A program made the translations under genes and the position numbers. Of a stretch of DNA of 64,000 nucleotides, positions 25,642 to 54,445 are shown one piece after another. Within the stretch, counting starts at the first letter, position 1. Every line of letters starts with the position of its first letter. The stretch spans positions 310,001 through 374,000 of the forward strand of contig NZ_QULN01000002.1 in NCBI RefSeq assembly GCF_003481705.1, read 5' to 3'. Source of the stretch: Butyricicoccus sp. OM04-18BH (lineage in GTDB: Bacteria; Bacillota; Clostridia; Oscillospirales; Butyricicoccaceae). A model generated the notes under the pieces. It did no database searches. It was not told the origin of the DNA and saw only the letters and a list, made by a program, of their open reading frames with translations.

Positions 25642-26343
25642 TTGCTGTTTCCTGCTCTGGCGGCGCTCGGCGGCGCATTTTTCCTCTTCGCTCTGCGCGT
25701 GCAGGGGGCGGACGGCTGCTTTCCCAGGCCGCTCTCCGCCGAGGAAGAAGCGAAGCTGCTGAAGAAAATGCGCGAGGAAGGCGATACATCCGCGCGAAAC
25801 CTCCTGATCGAGCATAATCTCCGGCTTGTTTCGCATATCATCAAAAAATACTACTCTCCGGAGGCAGAACGCGACGATCTTGTTTCCATCGGAACGATCG
25901 GTCTGATCAAGGCGGTCGACACCTTTCGGTCGGAGCGCGGCATCCGTCTGACTACCTATGCCTCCAAGTGTATCCAGAACGAGCTGCTGATGCACTTCCG
26001 CCGCAAGCGCAGAACGGCCGGCGAGGTCTCGCTTTCGGATACGCTCGAGACCGACGGCGACGGCAATGCGCTTTCGCTTCAGGATACGATCAGCTGCGAG
26101 GACGAGGGACTGAACGCCGTGGACGATCACGACCGCTATTATTCGATGTACCGCGCGCTCTTCTCCTCGCTCAGCCCGCGCGAGCGCGAGGTCATCCGGC
26201 TGCGGTACGGTCTCGGCGCTGCCGCTCCACTGCCGCAGCACGAGATCGCCCGCCGTATGAACCTGTCTCGCAGCTATATCTCCCGTATCGAAAAGCGAGC
26301 CCTCGAGAAGCTGCGCGGCGCCATCGGCGAGATGCCTCCATAA
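25642..26343 (+). CDS. sigK: Sporulation sigma factor SigK
   Basis: The 233-residue protein starts with a hydrophobic pro-sequence (about 1-22), as in pro-sigma-K, which is removed in the mother cell. Region 2 (RNLLIEHNLRLVSHIIKKYY, DDLVSIGTIGLIKAVDTF, TYASKCIQNELLM) and region 4 (LSPREREVIRLRYGL, EIARRMNLSRSYISRIEKRALEKL) are complete. The start appears to be TTG at 25642, eight bases after AAAGGGG. The gene is intact, with no skin-type insertion. It marks the organism as an endospore former. Confidence 0.93.
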   Translation: MLFPALAALGGAFFLFALRVQGADGCFPRPLSAEEEAKLLKKMREEGDTSARNLLIEHNLRLVSHIIKKYYSPEAERDDLVSIGTIGLIKAVDTFRSERGIRLTTYASKCIQNELLMHFRRKRRTAGEVSLSDTLETDGDGNALSLQDTISCEDEGLNAVDDHDRYYSMYRALFSSLSPREREVIRLRYGLGAAAPLPQHEIARRMNLSRSYISRIEKRALEKLRGAIGEMPP

Positions 26344-34775: not shown

Positions 34776-35963
<1,188 letters not shown>

Positions 35964-36000
35964 TTGTGTCATTGTCCTTTCTGTTTCTCGTGGAAGCGGA

Positions 36001-36146
36001 ATAAAAAAACGCTCCCGTTTGGGAGCGAAAAATGCGTTCTGCTCCCTCATCTTTCGTGTTTCTACGCCGGATTTGGCACCTTACAGCGCTTTCGCGCGCA
36101 GGTTGCCGGGTTTCACAGGGCCGTTCCCTCCACCGCTCTCGATAAG
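36001..36146 (-). promoter_or_regulatory. SAM-I (S-box) riboswitch
   Basis: The leader (minus strand) starts CTTATCGAGAG at 36146 and contains the hallmark GGTGGAGGGA and AACCCGGCAACC. P1 closes by pairing CTTATC with GATGAG at 36051-36046. A terminator hairpin CGCTCCC-AAAC-GGGAGCG with a T run follows (36027-36003). SAM binding should stop transcription of metK. Confidence 0.96.
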
Positions 36147-36170
36147 GTAGATTATTCACTTACGGAGTAT

Positions 36171-41308: not shown

Positions 41309-41548
41309 ATGGAACAAAATACTGTTCTCACGCTGGCGCAGCTCCCCGAAAACCGCTCGGCACGCATCTCCGCGCTCCGCCTCTCAGGCGGCATGCGGCG
41401 AAGGCTGCGTGAGCTGGGTTTTATTGCCGGGACGCGCATTATCTGCCTGCACCGCGTGTCGGGCGGTGCGGCTGCCGCATACCTTGTCCGCGGCACGGTC
41501 ATTGCCCTGCGGCGGAACGATGCAGAGCGCATCGAGGTGTTGCCATGA
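41309..41548 (+). CDS. feoA: FeoA protein
   Basis: The 79-residue SH3-like protein has the FeoA core RRRLRELGFIAGTRIICLHR and supports ferrous-iron uptake by FeoB. It overlaps the feoB start by four bases. The ribosome site is poor (no clear GGAGG before ATG 41309). No promoter is obvious in the 80 bases upstream. Confidence 0.88.
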   Translation: MEQNTVLTLAQLPENRSARISALRLSGGMRRRLRELGFIAGTRIICLHRVSGGAAAAYLVRGTVIALRRNDAERIEVLP

Positions 41549-42648
41549 AGAATGCAGGCTCTGCGGTCGCGCTGATGGGCAATCCAAACGTCGGAAAGTC
41601 CACGGTCTTCAACGCGCTGACCGGCGGACGACAGCACACGGGCAACTGGAGCGGAAAGACGGTCTCGCTCGCGGAGGGACGCATCACAGGCGAAAATATC
41701 ACGCTCATCGACCTTCCGGGTACTTATTCGCTGCACGCGCGTTCGCAGGAGGAAGCGCTCGCACGCGAATTCCTGACCTGCGGCGGTGCACAGGCCGTCA
41801 TTCTTGTCGCAGACGCCGCCTGCCTCCAGCGCAGTCTTGTTCTGGTCCTACAGGTGCTCGAGGTGCAGCCGCACGCCGTTCTTTGCCTGAATCTGATGGA
41901 TGAGGCACGGAAGAAGCATATCCGCATCGACACCGCGGCGCTTTCGCGTGAGCTCGGCATTCCGGTCGTACCCTGTGCTGCACGGTCAAAAAAGGGGCTG
42001 AACGAGCTGAAAAACACGCTTCGTGCCGTGCTGAGCGGAACACTTCCTCCCTGCTCCGAGCCGCCCATCCGATATCCCGCGGACATCCGGTGCGGTCTGT
42101 ATGCCGAGCCGCACAAGGGACAGACGCGCGACGAGCTTGACGATATTCTGACCGCCGCCGCGGTGCTGCGCGCCGAGGAAATCGCTATGACCTGCGTCAC
42201 CGCGCCGGACGATCCGCACGCCCGCGACCGTGCCATCGACCGTATTGTGCTCAGCCGCCGCTTCGGCATTCCCCTCATGCTCCTGCTGCTCGCGCTCGTT
42301 TTTTGGCTGACGCTCTCCGGCGCGAACACCGTCAGTGCTATGCTTTCCGGATTTCTGCTCGGGCTCGAAGCGCCGCTCAGGCGTGCGCTTGTCTTGCTCA
42401 GTCTGCCGCCCAGCGCTGTCTCGCTGCTCACCGACGGCGTATGGCGCGTGCTCGCGACCGTCGTTTCGGTCATGCTGCCGCCTATGGCGATCTTTTTTCC
42501 GCTCTTCACCCTGCTCGAGGACGCAGGTTATCTGCCGCGCATCGCGCTTCAGCTGGATCATGCGTTCTGCCGCGCCGGCGCCTGCGGCAAGCAGAGCCTA
42601 AGCATGTGCTTGCGCGCGCTGCGTGCGCAAAAAAACAGAACCGGATGA
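41545..42648 (+). CDS. feoB: FeoB, 5' part, interrupted by the inserted element
   Basis: The frame encodes 367 residues: a GTPase domain with G1 GNPNVGKST (12-20), G3 DLPGTYS, G4 NLMDE, then the first membrane helices including LLEDAGYLPRIALQLDHAF. Native FeoB sequence runs through codon 355 (SMC, ending at 42609). The last 12 residues (LRALRAQKNRTG) come from inserted DNA. The missing 272 residues are encoded in frame at 53627-54445. In this state the transporter lacks most membrane helices and is probably inactive. Confidence 0.92.
   Translation: MKNAGSAVALMGNPNVGKSTVFNALTGGRQHTGNWSGKTVSLAEGRITGENITLIDLPGTYSLHARSQEEALAREFLTCGGAQAVILVADAACLQRSLVLVLQVLEVQPHAVLCLNLMDEARKKHIRIDTAALSRELGIPVVPCAARSKKGLNELKNTLRAVLSGTLPPCSEPPIRYPADIRCGLYAEPHKGQTRDELDDILTAAAVLRAEEIAMTCVTAPDDPHARDRAIDRIVLSRRFGIPLMLLLLALVFWLTLSGANTVSAMLSGFLLGLEAPLRRALVLLSLPPSAVSLLTDGVWRVLATVVSVMLPPMAIFFPLFTLLEDAGYLPRIALQLDHAFCRAGACGKQSLSMCLRALRAQKNRTG
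42600..42609 (+). other. attL core of the feoB element
   Basis: AAGCATGTGC ends the native feoB sequence. To its right, inside the element, lies TTGCGCGCG; the centre is the TG at 42605-42606, flanked by AAGCA and TGCTT. Confidence 0.85.
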
Positions 42649-42675
42649 GGTTTCCGATCCTATTGAAGGCGATAT

Positions 42676-43450
42676 TCAGATTTCTCTGCCCCGCGTGATG
42701 AGCGCGTGCAGTACGAACGGGATAAACAGCGTGATGAGCGCCGCATAGCCGAGATATGCATAGCCCGGCTTGACCACGGCCATCAGACCGAACTGCGTGA
42801 TGGCGAACGCGATAAAGGTGAAGATAAGAAGTGAACACGGCGTTGCGCGCCAGATGTCCCTTCATGCGCTCTGCATCGCTTTTGCGGCCGCGCTCAACAG
42901 CGTTGACGCAGCGTGTGACGATGCCGGAGATCATATTGACCGCAGTCGAAATCGAACCTAGGATGATCAAAATGGAGATGATCGGGGTGAGCACGCCTGC
43001 GCCCACGCCGTTCTGGATCAGAACGAGCATCGGAACGGAAGCGTTGCAAGATCTGCCGCATAGGCAATCGCCAGCAGGCCGATGATGGAAAGCTCCATCG
43101 CTGCGAAGTTGCAGACAAACATGCCGATGGCTGCGCGGTTGATCTGCTTGACGTCCGTGACCGGCTCCATGTGCTGATACATGACCGAGACCGACGCGAG
43201 CTGGAAGAAGAAATACAGCACCTCCATCCAGAGCGCCGAACCGAACGTGCCGTTCGCCTTGGAGATGGTCGGCATCTCGCCGCCGGCCAGACGGCCGATC
43301 GCATCCGCAATCCGTAATTGATAAAATACTGGTAGATTTGCGCGCTGGAGGCAAAGCCGCCGCCGAACTGCGTGGTGAATGCGACAAACGCGATGCCCAT
43401 GGCAAGCGGCATCCTGCTTTTATCAACGAGCAGTGTTTTTTCTCGTTCAT
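42676..43450 (-). pseudogene. Decayed YkvI-like membrane transporter
   Basis: The start MNEKK at 43450 is followed by a frameshift; the reading continues as MPLAMGIAFVAFTTQFGGGF, then in other frames as IADAIGRLAGGEMPTISKAN, LYFFFQLASVSVMYQHMEPV and ITLFIPFVLHALITRGREI before the stop at 42676. At least three frame changes and short deletions separate these pieces. The fragments resemble YkvI-type integral membrane proteins. It cannot make a full protein. Confidence 0.75.
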
Positions 43451-43473
43451 GTTTCTTTTTCCCCTTTTAGCCC

Positions 43474-44135
43474 TTATTTATTGAATTCAATGACCTTGCC
43501 CGGGTTGAGGATGAGCCTGTCATCAAACGCCAGCTTGATGGACCTGTAGAGCTCTATCATGCGCTCGCCGACGAACTACTCGAGAAATTCCAAACGTCCG
43601 TTGCCGATGCCGTGCTCGCCGGAAAGCTGGCCGCCCAGCTTTTTCGACAGCGCATACAGCTCGGTCAGGCTCGCGTGGGTGGCGCGCTTCCACTCCTCGT
43701 CGCTCATATTGGCTCCGCGCAGCATCTCGGTATGGATGTTGCCGTCACCGCAGCCGCCTGCACATCGAGCAGCAGCGCGCCCGGCTCGCAGGTGATGGTC
43801 TGGTTTTTGTGATCGACCGGAAAAATACGGTTCATGCGCATGATGGACAGCATAATTCCGCCGTATTTGCAGGTCGCGCCGCCCGCAAGGCCGGTGCCCG
43901 CGCCGCGGCACACCACAGGGATATTGTTCTCATAGGCGTATTTCATGATGGCGGAAACCTCGTCGCGGTTCACCACCTCAACGTAAAGCTCAGGCGGAAA
44001 AACGCCGTATTCCGGCATTTCGTCGCGGTAAAACTCGCAGGCGATCTCATCGCCGACCCACACGCGGTCCTCCGAGGTGACAGAGCAGATGTACGCAAAA
44101 TCCTCCTCAGTCATTTTCTTATAGGGATACGGCAC
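43474..44135 (-). pseudogene. Truncated FAD-linked lactate/glycolate dehydrogenase
   Basis: The first 120 or so codons match the FAD_binding_4 domain of GlcD/lactate dehydrogenase (VCRGAGTGLAGGATCKYGG). Around 43745 the sequence jumps, in a different frame, to the C-terminal domain (GDGNIHTEMLRG, GGQLSGEHGIGNGRLEFLE). A TAG at 43576 then interrupts it before the natural tail FVGERMIELYRSIKLAFDD. So it has a large internal deletion, a frame change and a nonsense codon. Confidence 0.88.
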
Positions 44136-44138
44136 GGC

Positions 44139-44561
44139 TCAGTCCTCCTTTCTGTTCTGCACGAGCGCGGTCAGACGCGGTACGACCTGATACAGATCGT
44201 CCACGATACAGTAATGCGCAGTCTTGAATATCAGCGCGTCCGGGTCGCTGTTGATGGCGACGATGCATTCTGCGTCTTTCATGCAGGAGGTGAACTGAAT
44301 GGCGCCCGAAACGCCGCAGGTGATGATAAGCCGTGGACGCACCGTGCGGCCGGACAGGCCGATCTGGTGCATCTGGCCCATAGTCAGCACAGTGACCGTG
44401 CCGCCCAGTTTTTCGCGAAGCTGAAGCGCCGTCTCCAGCGCAAACAGATCATACGGATTGGTACGGGTATCGCCCGAAAGGCGCTTCATCGCGCCGGTTT
44501 CCGGATCAATATCGACCTTTGTGCCCGCAGGGACCTGTTTCATGCAAACAATAATTTTTAA
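44139..44561 (-). pseudogene. etfB-etfA deletion fusion
   Basis: Codons from KIIVCMKQVPAGTKVDI to GGTVTVLTMG are the N-terminus of electron-transfer flavoprotein beta subunit. The frame then switches without a stop to the C-terminus of the alpha subunit (HQIGLSGRTVRPRLIITCG, DALIFKTAHYCIVDDLYQVV). A deletion has joined the two genes. The expected ATG is a TTA here, so the start is lost as well. With the glcD remnant downstream it points to an ancestral lactate dehydrogenase/Etf operon. Confidence 0.85.
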
Positions 44562-44701
44562 AGCAGTTTCCCTTCTTCCCCTGTGGTGCCGGCCGCGCCG
44601 GCATGCGCGCTGCCGCGCGACAGCGGCCATATGATCTGTTGCGCGAAATCGGTTTTATGAGCAGCGGCCCATGGGCGGCTGCTTTTCTCGCAGGATAATT
44701 T

Positions 44702-45508
44702 TCAATCCTCGTCCCAGCCGAACAGGGATTTTCCATCGGCAAGCGTGCCGATACGCTCCATCTCCTCATCTGACAGCTCAAAATCAAACACGCTGAGATT
44801 TTCCTGCATACGCTCGCGATGCATGGTTTTAGGAATAACGCCGATGCCGCGCTGCACGAGAAACCGCAGTGCGATCTGCGCGGCTGTTTTACCGTGCTGC
44901 GCCCCGATTTCCCTCAGCACCGGCTCCTCAAAAATAAGGCGTTTCCCTTCTGTGAACGGCGACCATGCCTGCATGACGGTGCTGTTCTCGACGAGCGCGC
45001 GCCGCAGCGGTTCGCGCGGATAGTAAACGTGCGCTTCGACCTGATTGACCGCCGGAATGATACCGCACGAGCGGCAGAATGCGCGGTACTCCCGCTCGTT
45101 GAAGTTGGAAATGCCGACTGCGCGCACCGTTCCTGCGCGATACGCCTCACAGAGCGCACGGTACATTTCAAGCGACGCATCATACGGCTCGTGAATAAGC
45201 AGCAGGTCGATATAATCGGTCCCAAGTGCTGACAGCGACTTTTCGATATCGCGCTTCGCATTTTCGTAGCTCGCCGAAGGCTCGAACAGCTTGGTCGTCA
45301 GAAAGATCTCATGCCGTGCCAAGCCGCTTTCGCGCACCGCTGCGCCGACAATACCCTCATTTTCATACATCTGCGCGGTATCGAGCAGACGATACCCCGT
45401 TTCAAGTGCGTCCAGAATGCAGCGCTTTCCCGTTTCACCGCGCAGCGTCCATGTGCCGAAGCCGACAAGCGGCATGCGCACCCCGTTATTTAAAGCAAGA
45501 TATTCCAT
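44702..45508 (-). CDS. Aldo/keto reductase
   Basis: The 268-residue NADPH-dependent TIM barrel has the catalytic tetrad: Asp and Tyr in DTAQMYENEG, Lys in LTTKLFEPS, His in LLLIHEPYD. GISNFNEREY and VNQVEAHVYY also fit the family. The substrate is unknown. A promoter TTACAA-17 bp-TATGAT lies at 45564-45536 and AAAGGAGA precedes the ATG. It is intact cargo of the inserted element. Confidence 0.9.
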   Translation of the reverse strand: MEYLALNNGVRMPLVGFGTWTLRGETGKRCILDALETGYRLLDTAQMYENEGIVGAAVRESGLARHEIFLTTKLFEPSASYENAKRDIEKSLSALGTDYIDLLLIHEPYDASLEMYRALCEAYRAGTVRAVGISNFNEREYRAFCRSCGIIPAVNQVEAHVYYPREPLRRALVENSTVMQAWSPFTEGKRLIFEEPVLREIGAQHGKTAAQIALRFLVQRGIGVIPKTMHRERMQENLSVFDFELSDEEMERIGTLADGKSLFGWDED

Positions 45509-45535
45509 GCTTGTCTCCTTTTACCGTTTTCCCTT

Positions 45536-45564
45536 ATCATATCATGTTTTCCGCGTGTTTGTAA
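45536..45564 (-). promoter_or_regulatory. Promoter of the aldo/keto reductase gene
   Basis: On the minus strand TTACAA (45564-45559) and TATGAT (45541-45536) are 17 bp apart. Confidence 0.55.
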
Positions 45565-45637
45565 GGTGTGTCATCCGCGTTTTCACAGTCTGTATACGAA
45601 GGCTCCGAACTTTTTTCGCGTCCTGCGCATTTTTTCA

Positions 45638-45666
45638 TTGCAATTTGCCGTCATTCGTCGTATACT
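45638..45666 (+). promoter_or_regulatory. Promoter of the FUSC-like gene
   Basis: TTGCAA (45638-45643) and TATACT (45661-45666) are 17 bp apart, 36 bases before the ATG. Confidence 0.65.
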
Positions 45667-45701
45667 GTTTATTACAGCTTTTTTAGAAAGGACTTCGTTT
45701 C

Positions 45702-46757
45702 ATGACGTTTTATCAGGAATTACAGCTTGGTCAGGCGGGTTCAAAAAACCTTATCCGTGCCTGCGAAACGCCGCGCGACCGGCTTCTGCACACGCTCATC
45801 TATCTTTTCAAGATCGCGCTTACCGTCGGCTTCTGCTTCTGCTTTGTCACGCTTTACAGCATGGCCTTCGGCAGTGCGAACAGCATCGTGGGCGTTGTCG
45901 TGCTTCTGTATCTGCTCGTGTTCCGCGCGGCCGATCTCTGCCTTCATATCGGCCAGTCCACCGCCCTGCTTGCATCATTCCTCGTGCTCTCCGCGGCAGC
46001 ACCTCATCTCGCACATCTCGCAGGTCCGCTTCCCGGCTTTTTCATCAATCTCGCGTCTATCGCCTTCCTGATCCTGTTCGGCTGCCATGAGCCGCGCATG
46101 TTCAACCAGTCCACGCTCGTACTCGGCTATCTGCTGCTCTATGGCTACGATGTGAGCGGCCGCGATTTCACGCTCCGTCTGGCGGGCATCGCCTTCGGTG
46201 CGCTGCTCGTCTGCACCGTATTCCTCCTCAGACACCGCAGCCGCAGCATTCCGCTTCGCATCCGCGATATTCCCGTCGCGTTCTCCCTGCATCATCCGCG
46301 CTCGCGCTGGCAGCTCTGCCAGATTTTCTGCGTGCCGCTCGTCGTGCTGCTCGCCGAGCTGGCCGGTCTGCCCCGCGCCATGTGGGCAGGCATCGCCGCC
46401 ATGTCGGTCATCCTTCCGGTTGCCGAGGATATGCACTACCGGGTGCGCCGCCGCGTGCTCGGCAATATTGCCGGCGTGCTGTGCTTCGTCATTCTGTATT
46501 TTCTTTTACCGTCCTCCATTTACGCCTTTATCGGCGTGATCGGCGGCATCGGTGTCGGCCTGTCTGCAAAATACGGCTGGCAGGCTGTGTTCAACACCTT
46601 TGGTGCGCTCGCCATCGCAGCAGAAGCCTACGGTCTCAAGGCCGCGCTTGGTCTGCGTCTGCTTCAGAACGTATTCGGCGTGCTGTTCGCACTCGTTTTC
46701 TGTCTGCTGTTCAGCCGTATGCTCGCGCGTTTCTCTGCTCCTGCGGAAAACAGCTGA
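45702..46757 (+). CDS. FUSC-like integral membrane protein
   Basis: The 351-residue protein has two groups of hydrophobic helices (about 28-180 and 205-340) separated by a short basic loop (RHRSRSIPLRIRD), the layout of FUSC/aromatic-acid-exporter proteins. The second block opens with LAGLPRAMWAGIAAMSVILP and continues RVRRRVLGNIAGVL, close to the FUSC core. It may export an organic acid. It has its own promoter and terminator (hairpin ACCGCTCC/GGAGCGGT with a T run, 46762-46801). Confidence 0.75.
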   Translation: MTFYQELQLGQAGSKNLIRACETPRDRLLHTLIYLFKIALTVGFCFCFVTLYSMAFGSANSIVGVVVLLYLLVFRAADLCLHIGQSTALLASFLVLSAAAPHLAHLAGPLPGFFINLASIAFLILFGCHEPRMFNQSTLVLGYLLLYGYDVSGRDFTLRLAGIAFGALLVCTVFLLRHRSRSIPLRIRDIPVAFSLHHPRSRWQLCQIFCVPLVVLLAELAGLPRAMWAGIAAMSVILPVAEDMHYRVRRRVLGNIAGVLCFVILYFLLPSSIYAFIGVIGGIGVGLSAKYGWQAVFNTFGALAIAAEAYGLKAALGLRLLQNVFGVLFALVFCLLFSRMLARFSAPAENS

Positions 46758-46761
46758 GCCT

Positions 46762-46801
46762 TACCGCTCCTCCCTGCATCGGGATGGAGCGGTTTTTTTG
46801 T
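46762..46801 (+). terminator. Terminator of the FUSC-like gene
   Basis: ACCGCTCC and GGAGCGGT pair around a loop that itself has a small TCCC/GGGA stem; TTTTTTT follows. Confidence 0.85.
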
Positions 46802-46839
46802 GTCCTTTTACATTTTTCCTGTCTTTTTCCGTTTTGTTC

Positions 46840-46868
46840 CTTGCTGTCCGTTTGGGATAATGCTATAC
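46840..46868 (+). promoter_or_regulatory. Promoter of the element's feoA-feoB fusion
   Basis: TTGCTG and TATACT are 17 bp apart, 65 bases before the start. I see no clear Fur box. Confidence 0.5.
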
Positions 46869-46932
46869 TGTTTTTGACAGCGGTGCATGCGCGCCGCTGC
46901 ATTCCCGGATATAACAAAAAGAGGTAACCTGT

Positions 46933-49275
46933 ATGACACTCAAAGATCTGCCCATCGGCAAGACTGCAACCATCCGTTCGGTTGGCGGCGAAGGCGCACT
47001 GCGGCAGCATTTTCTTGATATGGGTCTTATTCCCCACGGCGATGTGACGATGGTCAAGTTTGCTCCGATGGGCGACCCGATGGAACTGCGCATCCACAGC
47101 TACGAGCTTACGCTGCGCTTGGCGGACGCAGAAAAGATCGAGATCGAAAACGTCCGCGACGCGGTTCCGCTGACGTCGCCTGAACGGCGCGCGCCCGTGC
47201 CGCATCCCGGTCTGGGCGAGGGCGGCCGCTTCCACGAAAAGCAGACCGAAAATCCCCTGCCCGAAGGCACCGCGCTGACCTTTGCCCTCGCCGGCAATCA
47301 GAACTGCGGCAAGACTACGCTGTTCAATCAGCTGACCGGCTCCAACCAGCACGTCGGCAATTTCCCCGGCGTCACCGTCGACCGCAAGGACGGCGGCATC
47401 CGCGGCAAACCCGGTACGCTCGTCACCGACCTGCCCGGCATCTATTCCATGTCGCCGTATTCCAGCGAAGAGCTCGTAACGCGCAGCTTTCTGCTCGATG
47501 AGCACCCGCGCGGCATCATCAACATTGTTGACGCGACCAATATCGAGCGCAACCTGTACCTTACCATGCAGCTGATGGAGCTTGACATTCCGATGGTGCT
47601 CGCGCTCAACATGATGGATGAGGTGCGCGAAAACGGTGGCTCCATTATGGTCAACCGTATGGAGGAAATGCTCGGCATTCCGGTCATCCCGATCTCAGCG
47701 GCAAAGAATGAGGGCATCGACGAGCTGATCGAGCACGCGCTTCATGTCGCGAAATATCAGGAAAAGCCGGTCGAAATGGACTACTGCGATGCAAACGACG
47801 ACGGCGGCGCAGTACACCGCTGTCTGCACGCCATCATGCATCTGATCGAGGATCATGCTGTGCGCGCAAGCCTCCCTGTCCGTTTTGCGGCGGCAAAGCT
47901 CGCTGAGGGTGATCCGCTGATTCTGAAAAAGCTCGACCTTGACGAGAACGAGAAGGAAACGCTCGAGCATATCGTCAGGCAGATGGAAACCGAGCGCGGC
48001 CTCGACCGTGCCGCTGCTATCGCGCATATGCGCTTCGACTTCATCGATAAGATATGCGATGAGACCGTTGTCCGCCCGCACGAGAGCCGCGAACACCTGC
48101 GCAGCGTCCGTATTGACAAGGTGCTCACCGGCAGGCACACCGCCATTCCCTGCTTCGTCGGCATCATGGGTCTCGTGTTCTTCCTCACCTTCGGTGTGAT
48201 CGGCAAGCTGCTGTCCGCGCTGCTCAGCATGGGCATCAATGCCCTCGGCGGCGTTGTGGACAGCGCGCTCACCGCGTGGAACGCTCCCTATGTGCTGCGT
48301 TCCCTCGTCATGGACGGTATATGGGGCGGCGTAGGCAGTGTGCTCCAGTTCCTGCCGATCATCGTGACGCTGTTCTTCTTTCTCTCGCTGCTCGAGGACA
48401 GCGGCTACATGGCGCGCGTAGCGTTCGTCATGGACAAGCTGCTGCGCAAGATCGGTCTTTCCGGACGCAGCATCGTGCCGATGCTCATCGGCTTCGGCTG
48501 TACGGTTCCGGGCGTCATGGCGAGCCGCACGCTGACCTCGGAGCGTGACCGCAAGATGACCATTCTGCTCACGCCGTTCATGAGCTGCTCGGCCAAACTG
48601 CCGATCTATGCCTTTTTCTCCGCCGCATTTTTCCCGAAATACAGTGCGCTCGTCATGACCGCGCTCTACTTCGGCGGCATCCTCATGGGACTGCTGATGG
48701 CGCTCGTGCTGCGCGGCACGATGTTCCGCGGCGAGGCGGTTCCGTTTGTCATGGAGCTGCCAAATTACCGTTTGCCGGGCGCGAAGAACGTCTGCCGGCT
48801 GCTCTGGGACAAGGCGAAGGATTTCCTGCAGCGCGCGTTTACCGTCATTTTTCTGGCAACGCTCATCATCTGGTTCCTTCAGACCTTTGATCTGCGCTTT
48901 GCCATCGTATCCGATTCCTCGCAGAGCATCCTCGCGATGATCGCAGGCGTGATCGCACCGGTTTTCCGCCCGATGGGCTTCGGAGACTGGCGCATTTCGA
49001 CCGCGCTCATCTCCGGCTTTATGGCCAAGGAGAGCGTCGTTTCCACGCTGACCGTACTGTTCGGCTCAACTTCTGACATTCTCGCCTGCCTCACGCCGCT
49101 CGCAGCAGCCAGCCTGCTGGTTTTCTGCCTGCTGTATACGCCGTGCGTCGCGGCAATCGCCTCCATCAAACGCGAACTGGGCGGCAAATGGGCGGTTTTC
49201 GTTGTCATTGCACAGTGCGTGATCGCATGGCTCGCCGCCTTTGTCGTTCACGGCTTCGGTACGCTGTTTGTATAA
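46933..49275 (+). CDS. feoB: Ferrous iron transporter FeoB with fused N-terminal FeoA domain
   Basis: The 780-residue protein has a FeoA domain (1-75, LRQHFLDMGLIPHGDV), a linker, a GTPase domain with G1 GNQNCGKTT (121-129), G3 DLPG (166-169) and G4 NMMDEV, then a membrane part with LLEDSGYMARVAFVMDKLL and IGFGCTVPGVMASRTL. It imports Fe(II) across the cytoplasmic membrane. It is intact and lies inside the element that interrupts the resident feoB, to which it is only distantly similar. A terminator hairpin follows (49286-49320). Confidence 0.96.
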   Translation: MTLKDLPIGKTATIRSVGGEGALRQHFLDMGLIPHGDVTMVKFAPMGDPMELRIHSYELTLRLADAEKIEIENVRDAVPLTSPERRAPVPHPGLGEGGRFHEKQTENPLPEGTALTFALAGNQNCGKTTLFNQLTGSNQHVGNFPGVTVDRKDGGIRGKPGTLVTDLPGIYSMSPYSSEELVTRSFLLDEHPRGIINIVDATNIERNLYLTMQLMELDIPMVLALNMMDEVRENGGSIMVNRMEEMLGIPVIPISAAKNEGIDELIEHALHVAKYQEKPVEMDYCDANDDGGAVHRCLHAIMHLIEDHAVRASLPVRFAAAKLAEGDPLILKKLDLDENEKETLEHIVRQMETERGLDRAAAIAHMRFDFIDKICDETVVRPHESREHLRSVRIDKVLTGRHTAIPCFVGIMGLVFFLTFGVIGKLLSALLSMGINALGGVVDSALTAWNAPYVLRSLVMDGIWGGVGSVLQFLPIIVTLFFFLSLLEDSGYMARVAFVMDKLLRKIGLSGRSIVPMLIGFGCTVPGVMASRTLTSERDRKMTILLTPFMSCSAKLPIYAFFSAAFFPKYSALVMTALYFGGILMGLLMALVLRGTMFRGEAVPFVMELPNYRLPGAKNVCRLLWDKAKDFLQRAFTVIFLATLIIWFLQTFDLRFAIVSDSSQSILAMIAGVIAPVFRPMGFGDWRISTALISGFMAKESVVSTLTVLFGSTSDILACLTPLAAASLLVFCLLYTPCVAAIASIKRELGGKWAVFVVIAQCVIAWLAAFVVHGFGTLFV

Positions 49276-49285
49276 AATACATAAC

Positions 49286-49320
49286 AAAAGAGCATGGAAT
49301 TGTTTTTCCATGCTCTTTTG
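49286..49320. terminator. Bidirectional terminator after feoB and the MATE gene
   Basis: AAAAGAGCATGGAA and TTCCATGCTCTTTT form a 14-bp stem with a six-base loop. Confidence 0.9.
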
Positions 49321-49324
49321 CTAT

Positions 49325-50695
49325 TCATATGGCATCATGCGGATTTTTTCCTTCTGACAGCTGCCGCACGACCGGAAGCGTGACGCAGAGCGCCAGAATA
49401 AAGGCGCACAGGTCGCTCGCTGCCTGACAGCACTGCACGCCGGCAAGGCCGAACAGATGCGGCAGGATAAGCGCAAACGGCACGAAGAACAGTCCCTGCC
49501 GCGCCGCCGCGACGATGCTTGCCCGCAGCGTCATGGCAATGTTCTGCAGCAGCATATTGCTCATAACGACAAAGCCGGTGATCGGGAACGAGATGCACTG
49601 CAGCCGCAGCGTCAGCGCACCGATACGGACAACCTCGGCATCGTCACCCCGGAACACCGCAATGATCTGCGGCGCGAAGAGAAAGCCGAGCACCGCAAGC
49701 GTCAGCAGGATCAGCGAGGAGGATCTGACGCAGAAACGGAAGCCGCGCGTAACGCGCTCGTACTTGCGTGCGCCGTAGTTGAAGCCGCAGACCGGCTGAA
49801 ATCCCTGACCGAAGCCGATCATCGCCGAGCCTGCGAACTGGCTGACGCGGGTGACGATGCTCATCGCCGCGATAGCCGCATCGCCGTAGGGCCGCGCCGC
49901 CGTATTGAGGCAGGTCACCGCAATCGAGGCCAGTCCCTGACGGCACAGGCTCGGAACGCCGCCGCGCGCGAGGTCGGCGTAGCGTGCAGGCGAGGGCGAA
50001 AACAGGCACAGCCGGATACGGATGCCGCCCGAAACGTATACGCCGGTCAGCAGCAGGCAGAAGCCGACAAGCTGACTCAGAATGGTGGCGAGCGCCGCGC
50101 CCCGGATGCCCATGCCAAAGGTGAAGATGAAAAGCGGGTCGAGCGCCATGTTCAGCACGCCGCCGGAGACCAGCCCGATCATCGCATATACCGCATTGCC
50201 CTGCAGGCGAAGCTGATTGTTGAGCACGAGCGACGCGGTCATATACGGTGCGCCGATCAAAATAATGCACATATAGTCGAGCGCATAGGGCAGAATGGTG
50301 TCCGTTGCGCCGAGGAGATGTGCGAGCGGATGCCGCAGCAGCAGCCCCAGAATCATGATAACGTAGCCGGCGCAGAGTGCGGAGAAAAAACCGGTCGCCG
50401 CCATGCGTTCAGCCTCCTCGCGGTGCTGCGCGCCGAGCTGACGGGAAATGTAGTTGCCCGAGCCCTGTCCGAAGAAAAAGCCGACCGCCTGGATGAGCGC
50501 CATGAGCGGAAACACGACACCGACTGCGCCGGTCGCGCTCGTACCGAGCCGCCCGACAAAAAAAGTGTCGGCCATGTTGTAAATGGATGTGATCAGCATG
50601 CTGATGATGGTCGGCACGGCCATTTTACAGATCAGCGGCTCGACCGGAGACTCAGTCATCTGAATATATTTTCGTCTTTGTGCATCTGTCTGCAA
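49325..50695 (-). CDS. MATE-family multidrug efflux transporter
   Basis: The 456-residue protein has twelve hydrophobic segments in two similar halves and MATE signatures (MADTFFVGRLGTSATGAVGV, GFGQGFQPVCGFNYGARKYERV). It exports drugs or toxins using Na+ or H+. The start is TTG at 50695, ten bases after AAGGAGG (CTG at 50698 is possible); the upstream frame has no ribosome site. A promoter TTGACA-18 bp-TATTAT is at 50794-50765. It is cargo of the element. Confidence 0.9.
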   Translation of the reverse strand: MQTDAQRRKYIQMTESPVEPLICKMAVPTIISMLITSIYNMADTFFVGRLGTSATGAVGVVFPLMALIQAVGFFFGQGSGNYISRQLGAQHREEAERMAATGFFSALCAGYVIMILGLLLRHPLAHLLGATDTILPYALDYMCIILIGAPYMTASLVLNNQLRLQGNAVYAMIGLVSGGVLNMALDPLFIFTFGMGIRGAALATILSQLVGFCLLLTGVYVSGGIRIRLCLFSPSPARYADLARGGVPSLCRQGLASIAVTCLNTAARPYGDAAIAAMSIVTRVSQFAGSAMIGFGQGFQPVCGFNYGARKYERVTRGFRFCVRSSSLILLTLAVLGFLFAPQIIAVFRGDDAEVVRIGALTLRLQCISFPITGFVVMSNMLLQNIAMTLRASIVAAARQGLFFVPFALILPHLFGLAGVQCCQAASDLCAFILALCVTLPVVRQLSEGKNPHDAI

Positions 50696-50764
50696 CAGAG
50701 ATATGCCTCCTTCTCTCTTTCTAAAGGCGACCTCCCCAGTCGTTCTCGGGAGAATTCTATGTAA

Positions 50765-50794
50765 ATAATAATCCTTCGCGTTTTGATTTGTCAA
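50765..50794 (-). promoter_or_regulatory. Promoter of the MATE gene
   Basis: On the minus strand TTGACA (50794-50789) and TATTAT (50770-50765) are 18 bp apart. Confidence 0.6.
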
Positions 50795-50811
50795 GCTGTA
50801 TTCTCCTGAAA

Positions 50812-52359
50812 TTATTCATATGCAATCGTTTTCGCAATCTCATTCTGTTCGAAATACAGGGAAATGCGAATGTTCTGCCGGCGGGCGGCTCCCCGCTCCG
50901 TTCCCTCCTCGACCTCTATACGCCGCACAAAAGCGCGAACAAGCTCTCGTGTAAGCCGCTTCGGACAGCAGCACTCATCGATCACGCTCTCCAGACGCGC
51001 TGTATCGGGCAGGTCCGTTTCTCTCATGTCCAGACGCCGGCGCAGCGCAGCCGCCTGTTCTTCCAGACGATGCAGCGCGGCATAAAAGCTGTCCGCCGCA
51101 ACTCTGCCCGATGCACGGTCCAGGTAGAGCGCCGCAATCGTATCCTCCGTGCGTGAAAGACTGCGCCGCAGACCGTGCGCGTCCTCCCCTTCCTGAGAGC
51201 AAAGACTGTGCATCAGCCGCTCGCGGAGCTCGGCTTTCTCGCGTTCCGTCAACGCAAGATGCCTGTGCAGCACATCCAGAACTGTCGCTTCGAGCGCTTC
51301 ATAATTCGTTCCGTGCCGAGTGCAGGCGCTGCGTCCGTGCTGCTTGTACCCGCCGCAGGCAAGATCGGCGCGGCTCCCCTTCCGTCTCGTGCCGACCGTG
51401 CTCATTGCCCGTCCGCAGTCCGCGCAGAATGCGATGCCTGTAAACACATTGACGAATCCGCCAGAGCGCGAAATGCGCCGCACACGGCTCTGCTGCTGCA
51501 CCTGCTCGAAAACCGCCTGCGAAACGAGAGCCTCGTGGCAATGGGGTACGATAAACTGCTCCTCTGGTGCTGTCCGACGGACTTTTCCCGATTTGAAGGA
51601 CGGTTTTCGTGTTTTTCCCTGAATGAGCGTGCCGAGGTACACCTCGTTTTGCAGGATACGCCGCACCGTTCCGGCTGTCCATTCGCCGCGCGGTGCGCTG
51701 CCGCGATAGACCGAGGGCGGTGCTTCTCCCTGAGCATTCAGCCGCGCCGCAAGCACCGACGGAGCTGCGCCCCCGGCCGCCCTTGCAAACAGCCGGCGCA
51801 CCACTGCCGCTGCTGCTTCGTCCGGCACAAGCCTGCTGCGCTCCTGCGGGTCGCGGCGGTAGCCGTAAGGTGCATAATGACCGATGAAGCGGCCGTCCTT
51901 CATTTTCGTCTGTAAGGCTGCTCGGATTTTCCCGCTCGTATCCCGGGCATACAGCTCATTGATGTAGTTGCGCATCGGAAGGAAAATATCCTCGTGCGCC
52001 GTGTCGACCGCGTCCCCCACCGCAACGACGCGCACGCCGTGCTCCGGGAAATAGCGTTCCAGATAGCGTCCGGTTTCCAGATAATCCCGCCCCAGACGGG
52101 ACAGATCTTTGATGAGAATGAGATTGATGCCGCGCTGCGGGATTTCGCACAGCATTTTCTGGAACTGCGGTCTGTCGAAGGTCGTCCCGGAAACACCGTC
52201 ATCTGCATATTCCGCCACGACCGGCCAGCCCTGCCTCAGGGCGTAGTCGTGCAGCAGCCTGCGCTGATTGGCGATGCTCTCGCTCTCTCCGGCACGGCCG
52301 GTATCATCGCGGCTGAGACGAAGATACAGCGCCGCGCGGCAGTCTGCCTCCGCCGTCAT
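50812..52359 (-). CDS. Large serine recombinase of the feoB element
   Basis: The 515-residue protein has a resolvase catalytic domain (about 8-150) with the nucleophile serine S16 in ALYLRLSRDD and the arginines in IKDLSRLGRDY. A recombinase domain (about 160-270, GHYAPYGYRRDPQERSRLV) and a zinc ribbon (CADCGRAM, then Cys near ADLACGG and SACTRHG) follow, with a coiled-coil region (about 385-450) in the C-terminal part. This is the TnpX/SpoIVCA class that integrates and excises elements. GGGAGGAAAT precedes the ATG, which overlaps a tiny upstream ORF. Confidence 0.95.
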   Translation of the reverse strand: MTAEADCRAALYLRLSRDDTGRAGESESIANQRRLLHDYALRQGWPVVAEYADDGVSGTTFDRPQFQKMLCEIPQRGINLILIKDLSRLGRDYLETGRYLERYFPEHGVRVVAVGDAVDTAHEDIFLPMRNYINELYARDTSGKIRAALQTKMKDGRFIGHYAPYGYRRDPQERSRLVPDEAAAAVVRRLFARAAGGAAPSVLAARLNAQGEAPPSVYRGSAPRGEWTAGTVRRILQNEVYLGTLIQGKTRKPSFKSGKVRRTAPEEQFIVPHCHEALVSQAVFEQVQQQSRVRRISRSGGFVNVFTGIAFCADCGRAMSTVGTRRKGSRADLACGGYKQHGRSACTRHGTNYEALEATVLDVLHRHLALTEREKAELRERLMHSLCSQEGEDAHGLRRSLSRTEDTIAALYLDRASGRVAADSFYAALHRLEEQAAALRRRLDMRETDLPDTARLESVIDECCCPKRLTRELVRAFVRRIEVEEGTERGAARRQNIRISLYFEQNEIAKTIAYE

Positions 52360-52439
52360 ATTTCCTCCCTGTACCGCTCAAGGATAATGCGCTCGAGCGC
52401 TTCAAGCAGCAGTTTTCGTTCTCTCTGCGTCACAGTCAT
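52356..52439 (-). CDS. Tiny ORF coupled to the recombinase, 25-27 residues
   Basis: The frame from ATG 52439 (or GTG 52433, better spaced behind GGGAGGG) ends in a TGA that overlaps the recombinase ATG. The peptide (TQRERKLLLEALERIILERY) is a single charged helix. It may be a leader that couples translation or a small regulatory protein. I do not recognise it. Confidence 0.5.
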   Translation of the reverse strand: MTVTQRERKLLLEALERIILERYREEI

Positions 52440-52638
52440 CCCTCCCTCACCACATCATAGCGGAAATCCCGGCAGATATGACATGGAACACGCCGCGAGC
52501 ATACCCCCTCAGCTGTTGAAACCCTATGTTTTCTGTGAATCGGACACAGTTCCAGAAAAAAATGACACTACTCTGTCAAAAATATGCTATACTATAAATA
52601 GAGACTCTCTGAGCCGGAAACAGCACAAGTAAGGAAGT

Positions 52639-53412
52639 ATGATAAGTATGACCAGTCTGCAAATTGCCCTGTGTGATGATAACAGCCTCTCCCTTCAACT
52701 CGCACAGCTCGCTATTCAGGAATACGAACGGCAGCACGCCGATCGCCTCTGCCGCCTGCATTGCTTCAACAGCGGTACTGCTCTGCTCTCTTTTCTGGAC
52801 AAACACAAGGATTTTTCCTTCGATCTATTCATCCTGGACGTCGTGATGCCGAAACCCGACGGCATTCAGACCGGCCTCGAGCTGCGCGCACGCGGCGACA
52901 AGGGACGCATCGTATATCTCTCGGCAAGTCCGGATTTCGCGCTGTCCGCCTACGATGTGCATGCCTATTCCTATCTTCTGAAGCCGATCGACCGCAAAAA
53001 GCTGTTCGAAATTCTGGATAATACTCATCTTTCTCCACGCAGGCCGCAGGCGCGTATGTTCGCCATTCATATCGGCTCGTCTGTCCGCTTGGTATCGTTT
53101 GATGAACTCATTTCGGCTGAGCTGAAATGCCGTACCATTCTCTACACGCTTGCGGACGGCAGCGTGATCCAGACGCCGACGATCCGCAATTCCTTCAAAA
53201 CCGAGGTAGCCGCCCTGCTCGCGCACGAGCAGTTCGTACAGTGCAGCGTTTCCTCGGTCGTCAATCTGCGATATGTGCGCTGTCTTGAAAAAAACTGTCT
53301 GTTTCTGCTCGACGGACGCCAGATTTCCATTTCCCGTCAGGCCGGCGCCGGCGTCAGGAGCAAATGGCAGAAATACTGGAGCAGCACATCTGAAATGAAT
53401 GGAGAGTTCTGA
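52639..53412 (+). CDS. LytTR-family response regulator
   Basis: The 257-residue protein has a receiver domain (about 7-125) with the acidic pair D13-D14, phospho-acceptor D67 in LDVVMPKPDG and K115 in LLKPID. A LytTR DNA-binding domain (about 140-245, with SVVNLRYVRCL) follows. LytTR regulators often control peptide signalling, toxins or competence. No histidine kinase gene is nearby, so it is an orphan in this window. ATG 52648 is an alternative start. A TATACT box lies at 52591-52596. Confidence 0.9.
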   Translation: MISMTSLQIALCDDNSLSLQLAQLAIQEYERQHADRLCRLHCFNSGTALLSFLDKHKDFSFDLFILDVVMPKPDGIQTGLELRARGDKGRIVYLSASPDFALSAYDVHAYSYLLKPIDRKKLFEILDNTHLSPRRPQARMFAIHIGSSVRLVSFDELISAELKCRTILYTLADGSVIQTPTIRNSFKTEVAALLAHEQFVQCSVSSVVNLRYVRCLEKNCLFLLDGRQISISRQAGAGVRSKWQKYWSSTSEMNGEF

Positions 53413-53426
53413 TCTTCCGCCGCAGA

Positions 53427-53476
53427 TCGAAAACACCGCAGCGACAGCATTTATGCTGTATTTTGCGGTGTTTTGA
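53427..53476 (+). terminator. Terminator after the LytTR gene
   Basis: AAAACACCGCA and TGCGGTGTTTT form the outer stem, with ACAGCAT/ATGCTGT as an inner hairpin. The 140 bases from here to the attR core hold no recognisable gene. Confidence 0.75.
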
Positions 53477-53616
53477 TTTACGCTCCCGGTATCTCTCATT
53501 TAATTTGTTCCCAAAAACGTACTTTTCGTGACTTGTCCCGTGCTATTCGAGTTTTCTCGACAAAACCGGACTGCGAGACCGGTCTCTATATCTATTTTAG
53601 CGCACAGAACGCACGC

Positions 53617-53626
53617 AAGCATGTGC
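53617..53626 (+). other. attR core of the feoB element
   Basis: AAGCATGTGC, preceded inside the element by GCACGC and followed by the resumed feoB codons ATG GGG TTC GGC TGC. The TG at 53622-53623 corresponds to that of attL. Confidence 0.85.
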
Positions 53627-54445
53627 ATGGGGTTCGGCTGCAACGCCTGCGGCGTAACCGGCTGCCGCATTATCGACTCACCCCGTGAGCGTCTGATCGC
53701 CATCCTCACCAACAGCTTTGCACCGTGCAACGGGCGCTTTCCCCTGCTGATTTTCCTGTGCGCAGTATTCTTCGATGCCGGATCAGCCGGCGGCGCACTG
53801 CTGCTGACCGGCGTGATCGCCGGGAGCGTCCTGCTTACGCTTGCAGCCTCCCGGCTGCTCTCAGCCTTCTTTCTGCGCGGTCTGCCCTCCTCGTTCGTGC
53901 TGGAGCTTCCGCCCTACCGCGCGCCGCAGCCGGGCAGGGTGATCGTGCGCAGCGTGCTCGACCGCACGGTGTTCGTGCTCGGCCGCGCGATGATTGTTGC
54001 GGCGCCTGCCGGTGCGCTCATCTGGCTGCTCGCAAACATCACGGTCAGCGGCAGCTCCCTGTACGGCAGCATGACCGCCTTTCTCGATCCGTTTGGGCGC
54101 TTCTTCGGTCTGGACGGAGTCATTCTGGCGGCCTTTCTGCTCGGCTTCCCGGCAAACGAGCTCGTCATGCCGCTCATCGTCCTCGGTTATCTCTCCGGGG
54201 GCACACTTGCCGATGTCTCCGACCTGCTCTCTTTTCGCGCCCTTCTGCTTGCAAACGGCTGGACCGCCTGCACCGCACTTTGCACACTCCTGTTCACCAT
54301 CTGCCACTGGCCGTGCTCGACGACCTGCCTTACAGTTTTCAGGGAGACCCGCTCGGTGCGATATACGCTTGCCGCCATCGCGCTCCCGACCTGCTTCGGA
54401 CTTGCGCTCTGCGCACTCGTGCGGCTGCTCTGTGTGCCGCTGTAA
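53627..54445 (+). CDS. feoB: FeoB, 3' part, separated from its start by the element
   Basis: The 272 codons begin MGFGCNACGVTGCRIIDSPR, exactly where the 5' part ends (SMC at 42609), and contain the Gate motifs and membrane helices of FeoB down to the stop at 54445. Joined to codons 1-355 they give a 627-residue FeoB of normal size. The open frame extends upstream into element DNA (to 53528), but no good ribosome site is seen, so this part is probably not translated by itself. Confidence 0.88.
   Translation: MGFGCNACGVTGCRIIDSPRERLIAILTNSFAPCNGRFPLLIFLCAVFFDAGSAGGALLLTGVIAGSVLLTLAASRLLSAFFLRGLPSSFVLELPPYRAPQPGRVIVRSVLDRTVFVLGRAMIVAAPAGALIWLLANITVSGSSLYGSMTAFLDPFGRFFGLDGVILAAFLLGFPANELVMPLIVLGYLSGGTLADVSDLLSFRALLLANGWTACTALCTLLFTICHWPCSTTCLTVFRETRSVRYTLAAIALPTCFGLALCALVRLLCVPL

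Follow-up and report, generated by a model that had tools for sequence, protein, structure and literature searches.

Whether an iron transporter gene cut in two by an 11-kb insert is lost, or can be put together again, is the question raised by the feoB locus of Butyricicoccus sp. OM04-18BH. In the 64-kb stretch of DNA analysed here (the window), the coding parts of feoB occupy positions 41545-42609 (355 codons) and 53627-54442 (272 codons, the stop codon extending to 54445). The original prediction had placed codons 1-355 and 356-627 on either side of the insert, ending at 42609 and starting at 53627, on a common strand and in a common frame, and this is confirmed. The identical sequence that it had noticed at both joints is exactly AAGCATGTGC, at 42600-42609 and 53617-53626. 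Excision of 11,017 bp in silico, from which restoration of the gene had been predicted, gives an open gene of 627 codons and a 627-aa FeoB with zero internal stops. The left piece matches positions 1-361 of TIGR00437, the curated FeoB model, and the right piece positions 358-594. Comparison with insert-free relatives, which had been proposed as a check, revealed that a single open frame spans the joint point in the seven nearest continuous ones. The features of the locus are as follows.

41309..41548, plus strand: feoA, opening the host feoA-feoB operon that the insert interrupts (relatives have a homologue upstream of feoB, 41-57% identity)
41545..42609, plus strand: feoB 5′ segment, codons 1-355 (TIGR00437 match and joint analysis)
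42600..42609, plus strand: left core copy AAGCATGTGC, 10 bp, attL (10-mer comparison of the joints)
42610..42628, plus strand: left inner arm, limits approximate, resembling the right arm in inverted orientation (18 positions compared, 14 identical; shuffle p 0.0025)
42650..44630, minus strand: decayed cargo, broken open reading frames (Pfam matches partial relative to the families)
43576-43911, minus strand: FAD-linked-oxidase C-terminal fragment in the decayed cargo (partial Pfam match)
44139-44630, minus strand: ETF fragment in the decayed cargo (partial Pfam match)
44702..45508, minus strand: aldo/keto reductase, cargo (protein-family scan)
45702..46757, plus strand: FUSC-type membrane protein, cargo (protein-family scan)
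46933..49275, plus strand: complete FeoA-FeoB fusion gene, 780 aa, cargo (protein-family scan)
49325..50794, minus strand: MATE family transporter, cargo (protein-family scan)
50812..52359, minus strand: large serine recombinase (LSR), 515 aa, named lineage A here (domain and homology matches)
52356..52439, minus strand: micro-ORF of 27 aa that overlaps the start of the LSR, putative directionality factor (similar micro-ORFs at other LSR loci)
52639..53412, plus strand: LytTR-type response regulator, cargo or regulator (protein-family scan)
53601..53616, plus strand: right inner arm, extent approximate (arm comparison)
53617..53626, plus strand: right core copy, 10 bp, attR (10-mer comparison of the joints)
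53627..54445, plus strand: feoB 3′ segment, codons 356-627 and stop (TIGR00437 match and joint analysis)

The insert has the features of an LSR-borne integrative element, namely an intact LSR, predicted to act on these sites, a core and inverted arms. The LSR, intact as had been claimed, carries Resolvase, Recombinase, Zn-ribbon and DUF4368 domains in its 515 aa, and each end of the insert has the short core, as a direct repeat, next to an inverted arm like those of an attP. A micro-ORF similar to that of the window is found upstream of the LSR at 14 of 25 loci examined. Scans of the window-insert proteins with Pfam and NCBIfam detected neither phage structural or lysis genes nor relaxase or conjugation genes. 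A chance match between the joints was rejected because the 10-mer is unique to them, with two occurrences in the window when both strands are scanned, and an assembly artefact because the same joint and matching arms recur across many assemblies. Two aspects of the insert, on which the original prediction was silent, are the complete FeoA-FeoB fusion gene (46933-49275) and the decay at its left end.

The feoB codon at which the window is cut is a recurrent target within a bacterial order. A strong match to the window's type of FeoB occurs in 43 of 87 Butyricicoccaceae genomes, where the gene is split in 20, continuous in 21 and unclear in 2. The cut lies at the window's codon in all 20 split genomes, and no full-length copy of this FeoB type was seen in them. 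Orthologues of the lineage-A LSR are present in 17 split genomes (372-517 bits), and in 15 of the 17 LSR and feoB half are on one contig; the top LSR score in any continuous genome, 298 bits, is far below. Inverted arms were recovered in 13 of the 14 lineage-A inserts tested (shuffle p <= 0.0025), the exception being G412 (p 0.06). A second, unrelated LSR type is inserted at the same codon, and in G421 both types lie between one pair of feoB pieces; one second-type insert encodes collagen-repeat and LPD3 proteins, which also occur in phages. Further cuts are found near codons 306 and 402 in other genomes. In G241 the feoB halves are on opposite strands, so excision could not restore the gene there. 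The order-wide scan gave a FeoB match at 1e-65 in 173 of 394 genomes, and since 26 among the matches listed were followed up, the number of split genomes beyond the family is to be read as a minimum. Searching genome contigs with the joined FeoB yielded identities of at most 58% among the matches listed, and searching viral contigs with the LSR a single match, at 32%. The cargo in relatives concerns purine salvage or galactose use, an apt-permease-deacetylase set being common to several species.

Purifying selection acts on both halves of FeoB in the seven split genomes tested. The dN/dS values range over 0.080-0.149 for the N half and 0.035-0.170 for the C half (21 pairs from 7 split genomes), the sample consisting of 7 of the 20 split genomes compared pairwise and seven single pairs, all relatives rather than the window species; the near identical G341/G399 were left out. 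A decayed feoB was rejected on the strength of this purifying selection in relatives. For the LSR, the median dN/dS is 0.10 (54 usable of 55 pairs, 11 genomes). Distances between LSRs and between FeoB proteins are correlated across 14 taxa (Mantel r 0.80, p 0.0002) and eight species fall into one LSR clade; with the common cargo, this makes the insertions look old and mostly vertical. The conservation of cargo in several species also indicates that island loss is not both frequent and heritable. In the FeoB tree, split genomes branch among continuous ones, as in G411/G400 (100/100) and G178/G317 (100/99). This tree has 20 rows (16 split, 4 continuous) and omits G407, G061, G443, G388, G402, G421, G042 and G237, for which motif extraction or contig ends did not yield the two halves together; a long-branch warning applies in it to WIN (the window) and G265, and in the LSR tree to G042 with WIN.

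Continuous alleles were found within two split species. Protein P0003 is 99.7% and 100% identical to the two halves of G199, and P0014 is 100% and 99.3% identical to those of G227. They may come from element-free strains rather than from excisants; a search with the G199 N-half protein turned up no split allele of 400 aa for this species, although a 90% cluster may hide one. P0001 has only the C half in common with the window species, and a continuous allele bearing the window's N half was absent among the proteins retrieved. The recurrent codon, the purifying selection on the halves and the continuous alleles in two split species go beyond what had originally been claimed.

On this evidence, the 11-kb insert is probably an LSR island, lodged in feoB between core copies and inverted arms, whose predicted excision would rejoin a normal FeoB. 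Since selection keeps both halves in the relatives tested, occasional excision of the islands, and with it restoration of FeoB, is likely. The LSR would have inserted a circular form by recombination between an arm-core-arm attP and a conserved run of feoB codons specifying Ser/Thr-Met-Cys-Met-Gly. A directionality factor would be needed for excision, and the micro-ORF next to the LSR, on its upstream side, may be that factor. Excision would take place in some cells of each population, or in one cell type, commonly enough over evolutionary time for selection to preserve both halves. In this way the host would trade FeoB for cargo, which in the window is a second Feo transporter. Searches with attP patterns showed no excision product or circle: the consensus attP of relatives had zero matches in viral contigs and in 87 related genomes, and the window's own attP zero in viral contigs.

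Several known systems resemble this arrangement. One of like anatomy is gin, in gerE of Bacillus cereus ATCC10987, likewise a non-phage LSR island with a short core (9 bp), an imperfect inverted repeat and a gene restored by removal; its directionality protein, GirX, is very small (42 aa), the feoB insert having its 27-aa candidate, but gin excision has been demonstrated in vivo and in vitro and targets a sporulation regulator, whereas excision from the iron transporter gene is predicted from sequence (PMC5595907). In C. difficile, skin (with CD1231 and CD1234) is also an LSR element splitting a host gene with a precise join, but the gene, sigK, encodes a sporulation sigma factor and excision is controlled by the mother cell (PMC5025042). 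The interruption elements of heterocyst-forming cyanobacteria are alike in that recombinase families recur in the same genes, several per gene, and differ in splitting nitrogen-fixation and other cyanobacterial genes, with excision assumed in heterocysts (PMC4874684); the terms 'feoB', 'ferrous' and 'iron transport' do not occur in that paper. In C. botulinum, yin splits yabG and exists in integrated and excised subpopulations, but is prophage-like and known from a single strain, in a sporulation gene (PMC10747680). The likeness to sporulation and nitrogen-fixation elements drawn originally stands for the site-specific LSR insert and the exact frame restoration. The target, as was also remarked then, is of another kind: this being feoB (TIGR00437), which is not known to act in sporulation, the insert is not counted as a skin/gin-type member. 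A literature search gave no earlier description of a feoB-splitting element, in keeping with the original prediction.

Programmed excision during development, for instance in the mother cell as for skin and gin, would fit the gin-like anatomy (LSR, short core, imperfect inverted repeat, no phage genes), a SigK-like gene within the window and the SpoIVA found in 15 of the 20 split genomes. It is nevertheless unlikely, as 5 of the 20 gave no SpoIVA match (assemblies may be incomplete) and feoB is not known to be a sporulation gene. Somewhat less doubtful is the view that feoB does no more than offer a favoured attachment site, where islands and prophages come and go repeatedly, split strains live without this FeoB, and empty alleles, by returning often, keep the halves intact with no regulated excision. 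The interleaved tree, the second LSR type with its phage-like insert, the double occupation in G421 and the continuous alleles in two split species are what it would lead one to expect, yet the insertions look old and mostly vertical and both halves are conserved all the same.

That the split is permanent and FeoB works as two separate polypeptides is improbable. It would suit the purifying selection on each half, the ATG codons that lie in frame at the joint and a modest-confidence structure model (mean pLDDT 76.8) that puts the cut at a helix end before a poorly predicted stretch, a fold compatible with the split (a single-sequence model, mean pLDDT 42, was not used). Against it, all 17 C halves scanned lack a Shine-Dalgarno-like motif in the 20 nt next to the joint, which makes separate translation from there unlikely; the LSR itself is under purifying selection, and two split species have continuous alleles. 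Most improbable is a dead window feoB replaced by the FeoA-FeoB fusion. The insert does hold a complete fusion gene and its left cargo is decaying, but both window halves are open throughout, and the halves are still conserved in split relatives whose fusion gene lies outside the insert (such as G167, G404 and G400).

Beyond the occasional excision favoured for the window, a broader reading is offered tentatively, as possible but doubtful: across Oscillospirales, feoB might be a recombinase-operated switch, with islands or prophages of at least two unrelated LSR lineages in the same codons and others near 306 and 402, and cells toggling between iron uptake and cargo by excision, which would make it the first gene-intervening system of this sort to act on a transporter used in ordinary growth. 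Gene-intervening elements described in the sources consulted mostly split sporulation or nitrogen-fixation genes. With elements of that kind, the rearranged cell is a terminal cell. With an iron transporter of butyrate-producing gut bacteria as a recurrent, conserved case, the gene-intervening idea would reach into ordinary growth, and a group of new LSRs would be gained together with their att sites and a small putative directionality factor. If true, the split feoB genes of these bacteria would not be pseudogenes.

The host feoA-feoB operon starts at position 41309, and its feoB gene is divided by an insert of 11,017 bp. The original prediction held that removal of this insert would restore a normal gene, and joining of the two halves in silico does yield an open frame of 627 codons. 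The direct repeat claimed for both joints is also found, as exactly AAGCATGTGC (42600-42609 and 53617-53626), a 10-mer present in just these two copies in the whole window. The left piece covers positions 1-361 of the FeoB model TIGR00437, and the right piece positions 358-594. From left to right, the region is organized as follows.

ending at 42609: feoB codons 1-355, the left piece
leftmost in the insert: broken ORFs, including FAD-oxidase and ETF fragments
then: aldo/keto reductase and FUSC-type protein
46933-49275, + strand: complete FeoA-FeoB fusion of 780 aa, within the element that divides feoB
right of the fusion: MATE transporter
right of the transporter: large serine recombinase (LSR) of 515 aa, intact as announced
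rightmost gene of the insert: LytTR-type regulator
from 53627: feoB codons 356-627, sharing strand and frame with the left piece

Among the insert proteins scanned with Pfam and NCBIfam, neither relaxase nor phage structural families were found. The FeoA-FeoB fusions of twelve relatives sit elsewhere and share 39-49% identity with the one in the insert.

Judged by MetK, the closest genome found is that of relative G265 (90% identity); in the window, a SAM riboswitch (36044-36148, - strand) lies directly upstream of a metK-like gene (34776-36050). The FeoB N half of G265, that is the codons before the joint, is 99.7% identical to protein cluster P0066, whose source name (uncultured Butyricicoccus sp.) suggests that the window organism belongs to the Butyricicoccaceae and may inhabit the gut. 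When the joined FeoB was used as query against 87 genomes of this family, 43 gave a strong match to the window's FeoB type, with feoB split in 20, continuous in 21 and assigned to neither class in two (G440, G442). Relatives without the insert were expected to have a continuous feoB, and a single open frame does run over the joint in the seven nearest continuous genomes; in the other 14, which are more distant, one FeoB match spans it. In all 20 split genomes at least one piece shows the cut to lie at codon 356, G402 being classed as split by its C half and arm alone and G237 by its N half and arm. An additional cut near codon 306 occurs in G042 and G421, where feoB is in three pieces. Complete inserts (eleven cases, including the window) measure 3.6-34.6 kb. 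On several contigs with a continuous feoB (G209:C27, G219:C82, G420:C155, G019:C1, G144:C3), spoIVA is on the opposite strand, no more than about 100 bp from feoB.

An orthologue of the window LSR (lineage A; 372-517 bits) is encoded in 17 of the 20 split family genomes, and the top LSR score among continuous genomes is 298 bits (G323). These orthologues share 47-51% identity with the window LSR by tblastn (40% in G042) and, except in G408 and G402, are found on the same contig as a feoB half (15/17). In G341, G399 and G406, also split, the LSR at codon 356 is of an unrelated type (type B, 26% identity to the window LSR).

With few exceptions, the lineage-A core CATGTGC lies within the Ser/Thr-Met-Cys-Met-Gly codons of feoB and is bordered by inner arms that are mutually inverted copies: the typical left joint reads CATGTGC followed by TTGGGTcAAAAacGGATGCG, and the right inner arm, ending at the joint, reads CGCATCCaCTTTTtaCCCAAGCATGTGC. 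The arm match exceeds shuffles in 13 of 14 lineage-A pairs, including the window (p 0.0025 or less; G412, p 0.06); the window's arms are diverged, as is its LSR. Three type-B pairs gave p 0.24-0.93 in this test, whose offset range is unsuited to the shifted type-B core. Immediately upstream of the LSR, 14 of 25 LSR loci (a count that omits G408) have a micro-ORF containing a LLELLENVIAAQFE-like stretch; the window's has 27 codons, the others about 35-50, counted from the likely start. The motif search found no match at the LSRs of G237, G227, G042, G085, G047 and G200 or at four LSRs outside feoB (G002, G105, G264, G330), and only a weak one in G267. On the model of GirX, the factor of the gin element, this micro-ORF is a candidate directionality factor.

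The phenomenon is not confined to the family. Of 394 Oscillospirales genomes sampled evenly, 173 match FeoB at 1e-65, and follow-up of 26 genomes together with reading of loci identified split feoB in at least 21 of the 173, G088 and G012 being assigned to neither class. Seventeen of the splits are at codon 356, including eight in genomes outside the family; in G095, G129, G291 and G303 feoB is cut near codon 402 and its pieces lie on separate contigs. LSR-like genes share a contig with the C part at the codon-402 site in G095, G129, G303 and G237 (loci L174, L176, L180, L147). LSRs of lineage A sit within feoB in G085, G047, G200 and, by partial match, G391; in-feoB LSRs of type B occur in G062, G174, G216 and, more distantly, G241, and both types lie between one pair of feoB pieces in G421. 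The halves in G241 (L188, 634-1446 and 7914-9128) share a contig but not a strand, an inversion, so that this gene is not restorable by excision. None of the lineage-A-like LSRs of G002, G105, G264 and G330, read with their flanks, adjoins feoB, and feoB is absent from the short LSR contig of G267.

Nei-Gojobori dN/dS ranges over 0.080-0.149 in the N half, over 0.035-0.170 in the C half (21 pairs each, seven split genomes) and over 0.116-0.244 in six pairs involving continuous genes, all approximate because dS is 0.3-1.25; the LSR median is 0.10. LSR and FeoB distances are correlated (Mantel r 0.80, p 0.0002, 14 taxa), also within an eight-species LSR clade (r 0.49, p 0.04; support 100/100), seven of whose species are represented in the FeoB tree, within a clade (99/98) that also includes the continuous G411. 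Sister pairs of a continuous and a split genome in the FeoB tree, G411/G400 (100/100) and G178/G317 (100/99), require exact losses or repeated gains. G400 is placed differently in the LSR and FeoB trees, a sign of some lateral movement.

Continuous alleles were sought among 5.8 billion proteins. Of 256 retrieved (the top 120 of each of three queries, not a census), 209 continue beyond the joint, with P0128 counted as continuous, 42 depart from FeoB there and five are unclassed. P0003 (646 aa, continuous) is 99.7% and 100% identical to the two split halves of G199, as P0014 (641 aa, continuous, three contigs) is to the G227 halves, at 100% and 99.3%; insert-free copies thus exist in two species with split genomes, and may be either excised copies or element-free strains. 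Among the proteins retrieved, the best match to the window's N half reaches 69%, and the sole close match to its C half (53627-54445) is P0001 (614 aa, continuous, 99.6%). The N half of P0001 is unlike the window's, with 99.4% identity to Butyricicoccus-type proteins and a switch about 10 codons past the core; either recombination or a chimeric assembly may explain P0001.

The reading we favor, with somewhat better than even confidence, is that the LSR integrates the island at feoB and that excision in some cells would be frequent enough for selection to preserve both halves. Searches for the circle joint, attP, gave no match: its consensus was sought in viral contigs and the 87 family genomes, and the version predicted for the window itself in viral contigs. 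That FeoB instead works as two pieces is less likely, since the 20 nt next to the joint contain no Shine-Dalgarno-like motif in any of 17 C halves; the fold alone would be compatible with it, the cut falling in a model of continuous FeoB (mean pLDDT 76.8) at a helix end before a poorly predicted stretch. As for the cue of excision, a tie to sporulation is possible: SpoIVA is present in 15 of the 20 split genomes, and the window has an uninterrupted SigK-like sigma factor gene (25642-26343, + strand), whose product falls short of the two curated thresholds for SigK (249.5 against 252 bits and 245 against 298.65 bits). Iron is an equally possible cue. Faecalibacterium belongs to the Oscillospirales, the order of the window. 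In this genus iron represses feoB, while fused feoAB is not repressed (PMC10781979). No report of a feoB-splitting element was found among the best matches in an open-access library, judged by titles and abstract starts.

The cargo, variable between genomes, bears on how often excision by the LSR would occur. Together with a purine permease, apt recurs in six of the inserts compared, and five of these six also have a polysaccharide deacetylase next to the LSR. Only 15 of the 87 family genomes have apt, and 12 of these are split. In 11 of the 12, apt is found inside the insert, on the side of a feoB half that faces the insert, or on the contig that carries the LSR; the apt of G227 is unlinked. 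The type-B insert of G341 encodes collagen-repeat and LPD3 proteins. The 34.6-kb insert of G167 (L113-L114), with galT-, galE- and galK-type genes, melibiase, an ABC permease and MsrAB domains, is by its predicted gene content a metabolic island within feoB. That cargo is stable and useful speaks against the island being lost often in a heritable way, and in favor of excision that would be rare, transient or limited to certain cell types.
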